Shown here piece after piece: positions 36,529 to 41,005 of a DNA stretch of 64,000 nt (within the stretch, counting starts at the first letter, position 1; each line of letters begins with the position of its first letter). Under the pieces are notes generated by a model. That model was not told the origin of the DNA, did not search any database, and saw nothing but the letters and a program-made list of their open reading frames with translations. Origin of the DNA: Streptomyces sp. NBC_00271. GTDB taxonomy: Bacteria > Actinomycetota > Actinomycetes > Streptomycetales > Streptomycetaceae. The stretch lies in contig NZ_CP108070.1 of assembly GCF_036178845.1 (NCBI RefSeq), forward strand, positions 9,920,001-9,984,000. Direction: 5' to 3'. A program made the translations under genes and the position numbers.

Positions 36529-37191
36529 TCAGCGGACCTCGACCAGGCGGGCGAACACGACGACGTTCCCGTCGTAGCCGTGTTGCTTGGAGAAACCGCC
36601 TCCGCAGGTGATGACCCGCAATTCAGGGGTGCCCTTGCTGCCGTACACCCGGTCACCGGGGAAGTTCTTCTTCGCGAATACTTCGACGCCGTAGATCTCG
36701 AAGGTGGCGGTCTTCCCGTCCTTTCGCTGGACCTCGACCCGGTTTCCCTTCTTGAGAGAACCGAGCCCGTAGAAGACGGCCGGTCCCCGCGTGTTGTCCA
36801 CATGGCCCACGATCACGGCCGTGCCCTTCTCGCCGGGCGACACCGCACCGGTGAACCAGCCCGCGAGATTGGCATTGTCGGGCGGCGGCGCGTCGACCCA
36901 GCCGGCCGAGTCGAGACCCACCGGCACGACCGGGGCGTTCACCTGGATCGCCGGGATCCTGACCCGGTCCACCACGGAGTACGGCAACGCGGCGGGTCCG
37001 TTGGAGAAGGTGGCGACGGGCGTCCTGCTGTCCGCTGCTGCCGCCGTCGCGGGCTGCGGAGGGCCCACGTCGAACTCACCGGAACCATTCCGAATGAGTG
37101 CGAGGCCGGTCAGCAGAACAAGCGCTATTACGCCCCACGGGGCGCGCTTCTTCTGCCGCTCCTCCTCTTCGGCAACCTCGGACGCAAACAT
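36529..37191 (-). CDS. Class F sortase
   Basis: Membrane-anchored cysteine transpeptidase that would link surface proteins to the envelope. The 220-residue protein has a short N-terminal membrane segment (about 20-35, WGVIALVLLTGLAL). The sortase core contains the catalytic His in VIVGHVDN, the catalytic Cys in VITCGGGF, and the C-terminal Arg region (VVVFARLVEVR). ATG 37191 has GAGGGGA just upstream; ATG 37236 is possible but lacks a ribosome binding site. The two nearby surface proteins (37524-38459 and 38569-39150) have sorting-signal-like tails but no LPXTG, which makes them candidate unusual substrates. Confidence 0.92.
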   Translation of the reverse strand: MFASEVAEEEERQKKRAPWGVIALVLLTGLALIRNGSGEFDVGPPQPATAAAADSRTPVATFSNGPAALPYSVVDRVRIPAIQVNAPVVPVGLDSAGWVDAPPPDNANLAGWFTGAVSPGEKGTAVIVGHVDNTRGPAVFYGLGSLKKGNRVEVQRKDGKTATFEIYGVEVFAKKNFPGDRVYGSKGTPELRVITCGGGFSKQHGYDGNVVVFARLVEVR

Positions 37192-37523
37192 TCGCAATCC
37201 CCTCTCGACGCGGCCGTCGCCGCGTCCGTCGCGCATACCGGAACGCTAAGTGCAGCATGCCCGGCGGGCGACGGGGCGCGGGCGAACGGGTGTCGGGGCA
37301 TCCGCGTGGTGAGCCATCCGAGTTGCCGAGGGCAGGAAATTTCTGACGGTCCGTGACCTGCGGCAATATCCGATTGTGTGGAAATCCTTCGGCGTGTCTT
37401 CTCACCAGGACGGACCATTCTCGAAATGCGTCCCTGTGCGCCGCATCTGAGGGTCTGTATGGGAGGCGCTTTCTCGCCGATCGACCGGGGACGGTTCCCG
37501 GGGCGTCTTCCGCGGAGGATCAC
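37192..37523. other. 332-base divergent intergenic region
   Basis: Separates the sortase gene from the divergent repeat-rich surface protein. CGGAGGAT at 37513-37520 is the ribosome binding site for ATG 37524. I see no small gene, hairpin or clear operator. Confidence 0.6.
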
Positions 37524-38459
37524 ATGCGTACAACTCGTGCCCTGGCGGTCTCTGTCGCCGTGGTCGCCGCGGTGGGGTTCGCCGCCCCGGTGGCGACGGC
37601 ATCGAATGAACCTGGCAGCAATGAGTCGAGCAACAACGAGCCGAGCAACGACGAGTCGAGCGGAAACGAGCGACTGGGCAACCCCGGTGGACCGGGCAAC
37701 GGCACAGGGCTGAGCAACGGCGGTGGAGTCGTCGGCGGCGGCGGGGTGGTCGGTGGCGGTGGGGTGGTCGGCGGCGGTGGCGTGGTCGGTGGCGGCGGGG
37801 TGATCGGCGGCGGTGGCGTCGTCGGCGGCGGTGGCGTGGTGATCGGCGGCGGTGGCGTGGTCGGGGGCGGCCGCCCGGGTGACAACGGTCGGTTCAATGG
37901 CAATGGCCGGTTCAATGGCAATGGCCGGTTCAACGACAACGGTCGGTTCAACGACAATGGCCGATTCAACGACAACGGCCGGTTCAACGACTACGGCCGC
38001 TTCGACGACAATGGCCGGTTCAACGACTACGGCCGCTTCGATGACTTCGGCCGCCGCGAGGTGCGGAACATCATCGTCCGGCCCAGTGTCATCGCGCGGG
38101 GCGGCCAGCTGACGATCACCGTGGAGGGCGAAGCGTGCCTGAGGCCCGGCAGCACGGTCTCCTCGCGAGTCTTTCGCACCACTCTGCTGCGCCGAGCGGG
38201 CGGTGACACGTCCATCGCGACGGTCGTCGTCGACCGTGACGCGCACCCGGGGTCGTACGACGTCACGGCCCGCTGTGACGGCCGAAGGCTGACTCGGCCC
38301 GCCGCCTTCACCGTCATCGGCAGTGTCCACGCTGGTCTGGGTGGCAGCGTCGGCGGAGCGGCGCCCGCCGACGTCGCGATCGGCAGCGGACTGCTGACCG
38401 CCGGCGTCGTCGGCGGCGGGCTGTTCTGGCGGCGCCGCAGGTCCGAGCGGCGGATCTGA
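37524..38459 (+). CDS. Repeat-rich surface protein with Ig-like domain and sorting-signal-like tail
   Basis: Secreted 311-residue protein, unknown function. It has a signal peptide (RTTRALAVSVAVVAAVGFAAPVATA), an Asn/Ser-rich linker, a GGGGVV repeat (about 66-116), nine GRFNDN-type repeats (about 120-176), a beta-sandwich-like domain with paired Cys (C205, C251) and a C-terminal VHAGLGGSVGG (268-278), a hydrophobic stretch and RRRR. The Cys domain and tail clearly match the convergent neighbour at 38569-39150. The layout resembles a sortase substrate without LPXTG, and the class F sortase is next door. CGGAGGAT precedes ATG 37524. Confidence 0.85.
   Translation: MRTTRALAVSVAVVAAVGFAAPVATASNEPGSNESSNNEPSNDESSGNERLGNPGGPGNGTGLSNGGGVVGGGGVVGGGGVVGGGGVVGGGGVIGGGGVVGGGGVVIGGGGVVGGGRPGDNGRFNGNGRFNGNGRFNDNGRFNDNGRFNDNGRFNDYGRFDDNGRFNDYGRFDDFGRREVRNIIVRPSVIARGGQLTITVEGEACLRPGSTVSSRVFRTTLLRRAGGDTSIATVVVDRDAHPGSYDVTARCDGRRLTRPAAFTVIGSVHAGLGGSVGGAAPADVAIGSGLLTAGVVGGGLFWRRRRSERRI
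37719..37872 (+). repeat. 18-base repeats encoding GGGGVV
   Basis: About eight tandem imperfect 18-base units (GGCGGCGGTGGCGTGGTC type) inside the surface-protein gene. One unit has an inserted Ile (VVIGGGG). The encoded Gly/Val segment is low complexity and probably elastic or disordered. The GC-rich tract is prone to slippage. Confidence 0.85.
37881..38052 (+). repeat. 18-base repeats encoding GRF[N/D]xx
   Basis: Nine tandem 18-base units (GGCCGGTTCAACGACAAT type) encode GRFNGN, GRFNDN, GRFNDY and GRFDDN variants. They follow the GGGGVV repeats directly. The Arg/Phe/Asn-rich pattern suggests a low-complexity, possibly amyloid-like or ligand-binding spacer. Copy number probably varies between strains. 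Confidence 0.85.
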
Positions 38460-38511
38460 TCGGTGCCCTCACCCTTGGCGGTGCCCCGCGTGCCACGCGT
38501 CTGACAGGCCT

Positions 38512-38545
38512 TCGCCCCGGACCTTTTCGCCGAGATCCGGGGCGA
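38512..38545. terminator. Bidirectional hairpin between the two surface-protein genes
   Basis: TCGCCCCGGA (38512-38521) pairs perfectly with TCCGGGGCGA (38536-38545) across a 14-base loop containing CCTTTT. The genes on both sides converge here. Confidence 0.65.
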
Positions 38546-38568
38546 GGAGGGCCCCGAGCGGTGAGCGG

Positions 38569-39150
38569 TCACGACTCCTCGTCCGTGACGCGGCGGCGCG
38601 TCATGGACCACGCGGTGCCGACACAGCCGGCGATGAGCGCGGTTCCCAGGCCGATCTCCTTGAGGTCGAAGCCACCGCCGGAGCTCCCACCGACACCGGC
38701 CTTGACGCCTCGCTGCACGGAGGCCGGGACCTGGACCTGGGTCGGGTCGGAGTAGGTGGTGCCGGAGCGGCCGGGGGCGATGGTCAGCTCGGTGTGGCCG
38801 CTCTCGTTGCCGCACTGGAACGTCACCTGGTACACCGAGCCCGCTCTGGCGTCCCCGTCGATCAGGGCCGTCGCAGACGACTGACCCTTGGGGATCGTGA
38901 CCGTGTCGAAGACTTCCGAGGAGACCCTGGCGACGGAGTCACAGCTCTCCGCGGTCAGCCGGAGCCGGCCGCCCGCCGCGATGCTCTGCGGCTGCACGTT
39001 GAAGCCGAACGACGTGATGTTGTTGCCCCGGCCACTGTCACGGCCGCCGTCACTGTCTCCGTCGCTGTTTCCAGCGAGAGCGGCGGTTGCGGAAAGAGTG
39101 AGGGCGGACACGCCCAGCAGTGCGGCCGAAGCGACGCGTATCGCGTGCAT
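38569..39150 (-). CDS. Secreted Ig-like surface protein with sorting-signal-like tail
   Basis: Short (193-residue) paralogue of the repeat-rich neighbour. It has a signal peptide ending near ALA (26), an Asp/Gly/Ser linker, a beta-sandwich-like domain with two Cys (C70, C113), then VKAGVGGSSGG (149-159), a hydrophobic segment (GTALIAGCVGTAW) and TRRR. Aligned with the neighbour, the domain shares the pattern GG-L-T-E-C, VSS-VF-T, DGDA-GS-Y-VT-C. GGAGG precedes ATG 39150. It may be anchored by the nearby class F sortase (inference); otherwise it would be a simple C-terminally anchored membrane protein. Confidence 0.83.
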   Translation of the reverse strand: MHAIRVASAALLGVSALTLSATAALAGNSDGDSDGGRDSGRGNNITSFGFNVQPQSIAAGGRLRLTAESCDSVARVSSEVFDTVTIPKGQSSATALIDGDARAGSVYQVTFQCGNESGHTELTIAPGRSGTTYSDPTQVQVPASVQRGVKAGVGGSSGGGFDLKEIGLGTALIAGCVGTAWSMTRRRVTDEES

Positions 39151-39374: not shown

Positions 39375-40139
39375 TCACTTCGGAAGGTGTGGGAACAGTG
39401 CCGTGAACGGCTCCGCCGAGGCTGTGATTCCCCGACTGTAGGGCGCGTCGAAGTCCCAGATCAGGAAGAGCAGGAACGCGATCAGGGCGGAGAAGAGCCC
39501 GGCGAGGATCAGTTCCCGCTTGGTGCGCCGGATCTGGAGCGCGAACACCATCCCGATGGTGACCACGGCTCCGGTGATCAGCCCGAACCACACCACGCCC
39601 GGCATGGTCGCGTCCGTCGAGCCGGCGCGGGCGTTGCGTGCCGCGTCGGCAGCGGTCACCTGGTCGACCAGCGGCTGGTAGGTCTGGGCCTCGAAGTCCG
39701 ACCTCGGCTTGTAGCCGCTGACGTCCTGGCGGACGACCTCGAAGAGCCGGCCGCCCTTGTCGGTGACGTGGCCGTGGTCGGCCATGGTCTTCCACTCGGT
39801 TTTGACGACGTATCCGACGTACGCGTCGACGTCGCCGCGAATACGGTCGCGCACGTCCGGCGGGTAGACGCGGACCCGCTCCGAGATCTCGTGCAGGGCC
39901 TGGGCCTCCGCCTGCACATGGTCCTGGGCGCCACTGCGGGCCTCCCAGACTCCGGCGATGGCCAGTCCCAGGACGATGGCGTACACCACGCCGATCATCA
40001 TGGTCATGTATTCGATCACGTCCGGGGTTTCGGACGGATCCTCGTCGTCGGGGGCCCGGCGGGTGCGTACGAGGGACACGACGAGGACGACGACACACGC
40101 CGCCGCCATCGCGAGGACGAGAACAAGCCATTCCGACAA
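39375..40139 (-). CDS. DUF4239-type (bestrophin-like) membrane protein
   Basis: Integral membrane protein of 254 residues and unknown function. It has an N-terminal segment (LVLVLAMAAACVVVLVVSLV), a second at about 47-65 (TMMIGVVYAIVLGLAIAGVW), a soluble middle of about 120 residues, and two C-terminal segments (GLITGAVVTIGMVF, LFSALIAFLLFLIW). This is the DUF4239 pattern; some relatives are called bestrophin-like channels, unproven here. TTG 40139 is chosen because GGAGG lies 6 bases upstream. Confidence 0.82.
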   Translation of the reverse strand: MSEWLVLVLAMAAACVVVLVVSLVRTRRAPDDEDPSETPDVIEYMTMMIGVVYAIVLGLAIAGVWEARSGAQDHVQAEAQALHEISERVRVYPPDVRDRIRGDVDAYVGYVVKTEWKTMADHGHVTDKGGRLFEVVRQDVSGYKPRSDFEAQTYQPLVDQVTAADAARNARAGSTDATMPGVVWFGLITGAVVTIGMVFALQIRRTKRELILAGLFSALIAFLLFLIWDFDAPYSRGITASAEPFTALFPHLPK

Positions 40140-40154
40140 GGATGCCTCCAGGGG

Positions 40155-40736
40155 TCAGCGCGGACGCAGCGCCGCGACGGCGAGCAACGCGGGCACGGTG
40201 ACGAGCAGGGTGAGCGAGACCAGGGACGGTCCGCTGCGGGGCGAGTGCTTGCGCGTCGGGGCGTGGTAGGCCGGATAACTCACCGGGGTCGCCGACGGTT
40301 TGGGCCGCGCCTTGGGCGTGGGCGAGGGCGTCGGTGTGGGCTTCGGCTTCGGCGCCGGCGGAGGTGCCGGCCTCGGCGGGGGCGCCACGGCAGGGGGTCG
40401 CGGGGTCGGCGAGGCGGGCGGAGGCGGTGGCGGGGGAACCGGCGGCGGGGGCTTCGGCCTGGGCTTGGGCGGAGGCGCCGGGGGTGGTGGGGGCGGCGGT
40501 TTCGGAGTGGGTGGAGGCGTGGGCGACGGGGGCGGCGGGCTGATGGTGCAGAGGTCGCCGCCGGCCACCGCCACCGCGTCCGTGCCGTCCGGGCCGATGG
40601 AGGCGTACGCGCAGGAGTCGGCGACCGCCGCCGAGGCCGGCGCGCCGCCGATGATCCAGGTCAGCGTCAGCAGCGCCAACACCCGTATGACGAGGGCGGA
40701 CCGGGTCCGCTGTGGTCCATGCACGACGGAGATCAT
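40155..40736 (-). CDS. Proline-rich secreted or membrane-anchored protein
   Basis: Unknown function, 193 residues. A signal peptide (VIRVLALLTLTWIIGGAPASA) is followed by a short domain with two Cys (SCAYASIGPDG, GGDLC), a ~90-residue Pro/Lys/Thr-rich region (PKPPPPPPPAPPPKPRPKP), and a C-terminal hydrophobic segment (LVSLTLLVTVPALLAVAAL) ending RPR. The Pro-rich region probably spans the cell wall. ATG 40736 was chosen by signal-peptide position; no convincing ribosome binding site. The DUF4239 gene starts 15 bases downstream on the same strand, so the two may be co-transcribed. Confidence 0.75.
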   Translation of the reverse strand: MISVVHGPQRTRSALVIRVLALLTLTWIIGGAPASAAVADSCAYASIGPDGTDAVAVAGGDLCTISPPPPSPTPPPTPKPPPPPPPAPPPKPRPKPPPPVPPPPPPPASPTPRPPAVAPPPRPAPPPAPKPKPTPTPSPTPKARPKPSATPVSYPAYHAPTRKHSPRSGPSLVSLTLLVTVPALLAVAALRPR

Positions 40737-41005
40737 GAGGCGTATCGCGCCCGCGCACGCCGGAGCCGACGGGTTTGCCCCCGAACGAAGGACGTCCGGC
40801 TCGCACCGGTTTGACGCCCCCTCGGGACACGGCCACCGGGGTGGGAACAGATGCGCGAGATGCATGCCGACGCGGGGTGTGTCACAGCGTTCCGAAAGTT
40901 TTTTGTGCGGCCGTTGAACACATCCGCCACTCCCGCCCGTACCTAGGGCCATGCGCGGCGCAGCAGGGCGCTGCAACCCTTAACGCGAACAGTGGGAGTT
41001 ACCCA

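Follow-up and report, generated by a model that had tools for sequence, protein, structure and literature searches.

A class F sortase is encoded in the window, a stretch of 64,000 nucleotides from Streptomyces sp. NBC_00271 (contig NZ_CP108070.1, positions 9,920,001 to 9,984,000), beside two surface proteins, here called A and B, which carry sorting-like C-terminal tails and lack the LPXTG motif. The locus raises the question of whether A and B are substrates of the adjoining sortase and which signal would be recognized in them. As judged from the sequences, both proteins are probably cognate substrates that this sortase anchors to the cell wall. The genome containing the window is 12.28 Mb in size, and the named relatives of the window proteins are from Streptomyces, with S. 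mirabilis being the closest.

The sortase (235 amino acids) lies at 36529..37236 on the minus strand and was defined using NF033748, PF04203, residue positions, and a column alignment of 128 class F sortases. It scored 208.7 bits with the NCBIfam class F model NF033748 (cut-off 166), matched Pfam PF04203, and possesses an N-terminal membrane helix at residues 35-48. The catalytic His145 and Cys211 are present, and Asn224 (Cys+13) occupies the place of the usual catalytic Arg. With the thresholds applied, a PDB sequence search retrieved nothing related to the sortase. Protein A (311 amino acids; 37524..38459, plus strand) consists of a signal peptide, a Gly/Asn-rich repeat spacer, a conserved Cys-pair domain, and the sorting-like tail; its open reading frame (ORF) could start as early as the GTG at 37353, and the Met of the signal peptide is at 37524. 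Protein B (193 amino acids; 38569..39150, minus strand) has the signal peptide, the Cys-pair domain, and the tail. As an earlier note on this DNA had described, A and B form a convergent pair beside the sortase. A diverges from the sortase gene and begins 287 bases upstream of it.

The tail of A (38322..38453, plus strand) reads VHAGLGGSVGG, then a helix, then RRRRSERR; SVHAG-LGGSVGG is encoded at 38322-38357, the hydrophobic helix at 38376-38429, and the Arg cluster at 38430-38453. The tail of B (38590..38709, minus strand) reads VKAGVGGSSGG, then a helix, then RRR; GVKAG-VGGSSGG is encoded at 38674-38709, the helix at 38608-38658, and the RRR at 38590-38598. Accordingly, the genes and the tails, with AGxGGSxGG, a helix, and an Arg cluster in that order, were found where they had been placed by the earlier note, and its statement that neither protein contains LPXTG held, as inspection of A and B revealed neither LPXTG nor LAXTG. 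The Cys pair it had reported in the shared domain is located at residues 205/251 of A and 70/113 of B, and a third Cys of B falls in its helix. In a pairwise comparison, A and B were homologous over the shared domain (33%, E 2e-5). Because A and B are homologous, their like tails within the window do not count as two independent observations. No Pfam or NCBIfam domain and no credible PDB sequence match, including for the shared domain, was obtained for A or B, and the Ig-like fold ascribed to this domain by the earlier note is accordingly putative. B had 477 homologues at E up to 0.001.

An alternative reading is that A and B are uncut proteins anchored in the membrane by their C termini, in which case the Gly-rich stretch would be a flexible linker and the neighbourhood would be hitch-hiking. 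This is considered unlikely, although A and B are paralogues and their common tail may be plain descent. Conservation of the locus bears directly on this point. Named Streptomyces loci were retrieved via the sortase, and the best 80 of 223 encoding a relative were compared. An A-type gene adjoins the sortase in 79 of the 80 loci; in the exception, L048, the sortase lies close to the end of its contig. An intact-tailed B was found in 65. In two further loci, the C-terminal tail of the B orthologue is out of frame (L026 1158-1829 and L027 1163-1837). G-x-G-G was kept in all tails counted, namely, 80 of A and 66 of B with the window included, in a set that had been filtered on this pattern; the filter dropped only the two out-of-frame B tails. 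G-x-G-G is followed by Ser in 78 of 80 A tails. In the B tails, it is followed by Ser or Thr in 63 of 65, and the B tail of L077 has no residue at this place. Retention of this pattern in the 146 tails counted, while the spacer of A varies freely, argues against the uncut anchor. A profile of B gave 91 matches to the A/B family in 52 of 71 Streptomyces genomes, and for at least 77 of these matches a class F sortase was located no more than 3.5 kb away.

The association of such tails with class F sortases was also evaluated across the class. Among 118 genomes sampled from it, NF033748 had a match in 92 and exceeded its cut-off in 54. The 120 over-cut-off places in 53 other genomes, which are part of those listed, and four of the window genome gave 124 loci from 54 genomes with 128 sortases. 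Fixed criteria for the helix, the basic end, and codon bias served to call tail ORFs, and those within 1.5 kb of the sortase were defined as near. An early strict motif scan, which found tails in few loci, was superseded by homology and motif finding. The pattern [TA]G.GG was present in 59 of 116 near tail ORFs, against a shuffle expectation of 8.4, and in none of 72 farther ORFs, while LPxTG/LAxTG was present in none of the 116 near tails and six of the 72 far tails of the 124 class F loci. Motif finding from random starts yielded the consensus P-x-G-[GA]-[VPA]-x-[TA]-G-x-G. In runs that left out each genome in turn, but whose seed had been selected with the full data set, 97 of the 116 near tails outscored the best of the 72 far tails; these 97 were from 90 of the 124 loci. 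The genomic link between motif and actinobacterial class F sortases, for which the earlier note had suggested a search and whose absence it had named as refuting its proposal, was therefore found; its AGxGGSxGG motif is a lineage variant of the wider P-x-G-G-V-x-[TA]-G-x-G.

A score of 8.5 bits was reached by only 1% of shuffled near tails and by 92 of the 116 real ones, which argues against uncut anchors. With a looser tail filter, for which the values were not cross-validated, a motif tail lay within 1.5 kb in 99 of 124 loci, and 8.5 bits was exceeded by 113 of 254 near ORFs versus 1 of 341 far ORFs. A further set of 20 loci, of which 17 fell below the cut-off, included 12 with a tail of at least 10 bits within 2.5 kb. 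After removal of the tails, the 109 near proteins above 3.7 bits fell into 44 groups defined solely by the lack of a BLASTP link at E 1e-4, so that distant kinship is possible, and in 34 of these groups the best motif reached at least 10 bits. The occurrence of one motif on bodies unlinked by BLASTP also speaks against the uncut anchor. Common descent of A and B does not suffice as a full explanation of their tails, because proteins with no sequence link to them carry the motif too.

In three of the loci (L117, L121, and L122), class F sortases occur in pairs and have two or three distinct tail proteins nearby, with the tails GGAQTGAGG, GGAATGGGG, GGADTGVG, or GGAQTGEA, an arrangement that recalls pilus clusters. 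In divergent class F loci (L229, L234, L235, L236, and L238), neighbours with RIDAG, GVPAGEAG, GVPSGTGG, and SVPAGNAG were noted, and these forms are perhaps sub-class signals.

The window genome itself offered a further comparison. It contains ten sortase-domain matches, comprising four of class E, five of class F over the cut-off, and one unassigned. A tail protein was found beside all five class F sortases; the tails beside the other four are HVNTGVGGALG (L093), MHTGGGALA (L092), VHAGGGGTAH (L094), and APDTGVTPT (L091), the last being the weakest. The A/B tail profile also matched two proteins elsewhere in this genome at E near 9e-6, with the tails GGLGGS (L098 985-1647) and GGAGGT (L099 448-1647). 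None of the ten sortase matches lies near them, and it is possible that they are substrates in trans.

The general signal proved to be described already by the NCBIfam model NF058571, GVDTG_CTERM ("GVDTG sorting domain-containing protein", cut-off 29 bits). In 30 genomes, 27 matches to this model exceeded the cut-off; 26 of them had a class F sortase no farther than 3 kb away, and none had a class E sortase nearby. When matches at E up to 1e-3 were counted, the value for class F was 47 of 59. Over-cut-off matches were present in 17 of the 30 genomes and were absent from all five that lacked a class F match. Of 149 genomes drawn from the phylum, 11 had a match over the cut-off of the model. Outside the class, 13 matches were listed in 11 genomes, and by eye 10 of the 13 were 1 kb or less from a class F match. 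Each of these 11 genomes contains a class F match at E up to 1e-10, and in 10 genomes this match exceeds the cut-off. The model was also passed by proteins beside sortases of the window type in four other Streptomyces (G116, G086, G016, and G106) and, with 31.3 bits, by the neighbour of another class F sortase in the window genome.

These counts bear on the question of which enzyme acts on the tails. A and B could in principle be cut by another enzyme, either a class E sortase or a rhombosortase-like protease of a GlyGly-CTERM-like system. GlyGly-CTERM tails have the same order of Gly-rich motif, helix, and basic cluster, and the four class E sortases of the window genome would be available. 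However, a neighbour matching NF058571 (E up to 1e-3, within 3 kb) was found for 50 of 101 listed class F sortases and for 0 of 58 class E sortases, a class E tally that is restricted to matches over the cut-off and leaves out two below it in genome G117. In addition, no GlyGly-CTERM model matched A or B, and the enzyme adjoining them is of class F. Action of such another enzyme is therefore considered very unlikely. The company of class F rather than class E sortases likewise argues against the uncut anchor, and cleavage of A and B by the class F sortase is the reading pursued below.

The active site of the sortase differs from that of class E. In the alignment of the 128 class F sortases, Asn occupies the place of the catalytic Arg in 124 and Ser in four, whereas Arg was present in all four class E sortases aligned. 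An Arg-keeping class F sortase, which would allow the pairing of Arg with LPXTG to be tested, was found neither among the 128 aligned nor, by eye, among the active sites shown for the 20 further loci. The replacement of Arg by Asn in actinobacterial class F is already in print, as stated in a passage of PMC6998099. It might accordingly be proposed that the sortase-like enzyme of class F acts as a hydrolase or chaperone, trimming or releasing the proteins rather than anchoring them. Nevertheless, the catalytic His and the catalytic Cys are each kept in 127 of 128 class F sortases, and the Cutibacterium acnes class F sortase SrtF is reported in passages of PMC7913060 to be very similar to SrtA in activity. 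The hydrolase or chaperone was thus judged quite improbable, and an anchoring sortase remains the preferred reading.

For an anchoring sortase, the observed genes, tail order, and conservation, together with the link of such tails to class F, not class E, are consistent with the following steps. A and B would be exported, presumably by the Sec route in view of their signal peptides, and the hydrophobic helix and the Arg cluster at their C termini would retain them in the membrane. Cys211 would then cleave between Ala and Gly in (S/G)-V-(H/K)-A-|-G-x-G-G-S, and A and B would be joined via the Ala to a peptidoglycan amine. In this scheme, G-V-x-[TA]-G would occupy the place of LPXTG and keep the residue-Gly bond that is cut by sortases. 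Because GVxTG sits at the place of LPXTG, cleavage is predicted at Ala270|Gly271 for A and at Ala151|Gly152 for B. It is further hypothesized that the unusual signal is coupled to the replacement of Arg by Asn. Class F might then represent a separate specificity class, in which an active site with Asn for Arg cuts the [TA]-Gly bond of a Gly-rich signal free of Leu-Pro, each paralogue has its own variant, and A and B have lost the Thr while keeping G-x-G-G. This joint proposal is put forward tentatively, with slightly less than even confidence.

Several points weigh against A and B being cognate class F substrates. Cleavage, the exact bond, the acceptor, and the pairing of sortase with protein are inferred, and this is also what favours the uncut anchor. 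In the class-wide comparison, no motif tail was found in 25 of the 124 loci even with the looser filter, and in eight of the 20 further loci, 17 of the 20 being below the cut-off, no tail reached 10 bits. The near tails also lack independence, as the largest body group holds 31 of the 109 proteins; some small body groups resemble spurious ORFs, and the seed shared by the leave-one-out runs had drawn on all data. Among the 91 A/B-family matches, 14 are not near any of the class F sortases listed. In the published work, C. acnes SrtF acts on LPXTG, according to passages of PMC7913060 and PMC13257024, and a quadruple deletion that removed all four class F sortases from Actinoplanes missouriensis is described in passages of PMC13251363 as giving no phenotype.

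The fit of A and B to the general signal also counts in this balance. Neither gave a match to NF058571 at E up to 10. They differ from the model in having Ala for Thr and no Pro five residues before Val-x-Ala-Gly, and they keep its order of motif, helix, and basic cluster at the C terminus. With the class-wide motif, the tails of A and B scored 13.7 and 11.6 bits, respectively. When the motif was trained on 67 non-Streptomyces tails, the scores fell to 6.5 bits for A and 4.8 bits for B, compared with 3.1 bits for the best far tail, and 9.1% of shuffled A/B tails passed this far maximum. The maximum was passed by 56 of 80 A types and 59 of 68 B types, the 68 including the two out-of-frame tails. 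The Thr place is taken by Ala, or by Gly in most A types. Because of these modest scores, the Ala or Gly in place of Thr, and the lost Pro, A and B are best read as divergent members of the class F signal, Thr-less and without the upstream Pro. Consequently, the "new recognition motif" of the earlier note stands in part: a non-LPXTG class F signal has strong support from gene context across numerous genomes of actinobacteria, but its general form is already modelled in NF058571.

The remaining features of the locus concern the spacer and the upstream region of A. Tandem Repeats Finder detected a GGGGVV array at 37718..37870 and a GRFNDN array at 37881..38039, both on the plus strand and with an 18-nucleotide period, in 8.3 and 8.8 copies, respectively. 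At least three GRF[ND] units were present in only 3 of 80 A proteins and at least three Gly4-type matches in 4 of 80, the window being included in both counts, and the median length of the A ORF was 221 codons. The long repeats of A are a fast-changing, clade-specific spacer. The role of spacer suggested previously therefore fits, while the adhesive role suggested with it is unsupported, as the arrays are not conserved.

Upstream of A, a conserved non-coding leader was recognized at 37333..37523 (plus strand) from column conservation and the lack of codon periodicity. The mean column conservation was approximately 84-85% over an alignment of 70 sequences, which includes non-orthologous ones; 54 of the 70 satisfy a stricter orthology filter, and in-frame stops were present in 61. 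The leader had no Rfam match at gathering scores, there was no two-sided covariation among 28 predicted pairs, and a sigma-70 scan found no promoter. Its conservation suggests a putative regulatory region. Past B, the next gene encodes a bestrophin-like membrane protein (39375-40139; PF14023, 197 bits). It is followed at 40155-40976 by a proline-rich ORF with a hydrophobic stretch and then Arg-Pro-Arg at its end, and proline-rich tails of this kind recur approximately 2.4 kb from the same sortase type at other Streptomyces loci.

The function or role of class F sortases is called unknown in passages of PMC6998099 and PMC13251363. In the portions of PMC5148588 consulted, only classes A to E have a named sorting signal, and S. 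coelicolor is credited with five sortases of class F; in those of PMC13257024, the LPXTG of C. acnes is the sole class F signal known. According to a passage of PMC10924467, one or more sortases of each of classes E and F are usual in a Streptomyces genome, and LAETG is named for SrtE. In the open-licence literature searched, no class F signal of the present kind was found described for actinobacteria, and "GVDTG" appeared in two papers only, both unrelated as judged from the title and the opening of the abstract. The general signal is thus already modelled in a database (NF058571) and was found in no open-licence paper, and A and B are a variant that escapes the model.

Searches limited to LPXTG-like pentapeptides miss proteins of the A/B type. 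A 2026 study of Actinoplanes provides an example, as two neighbours of class F sortases were set aside because no known pentapeptide was found in them, according to the part of PMC13251363 consulted. A defined signal with likely partner pairs would make class F, whose sortases have no agreed target, directly testable. If the proposed specificity is true, an Arg-less sortase with a different signal could also serve as an orthogonal ligation enzyme.

Among known systems, the closest in form is NF058571, which has the same tripartite tail as A and B and the same place for the pentapeptide. The rhombosortase/GlyGly-CTERM system likewise has a Gly-rich motif before a helix and a basic tail, but the enzyme linked to the tails here is a cysteine sortase. 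The Streptomyces class E/LAXTG system (SrtE1/SrtE2 and the chaplins), as described in passages of PMC5148588, resembles A and B in genus and in the succession of pentapeptide, helix, and basic cluster. It differs in combining LAXTG with a catalytic Arg, whereas the class F loci examined here had neither LPxTG/LAxTG in any of the 116 neighbouring tails nor Arg in any of the 128 sortases. C. acnes SrtF belongs to the same named class as the window sortase and differs in the LPXTG that it recognizes (the same passages of PMC7913060 and PMC13257024). Finally, AMIS_11010 and AMIS_36440, the Actinoplanes missouriensis proteins that were set aside beside SrtF1 and SrtF4, are likened to A and B on the basis of their authors' description, which gives them a signal peptide, a C-terminal helix, and basic residues, and which states that they may be class F substrates (PMC13251363, in part).

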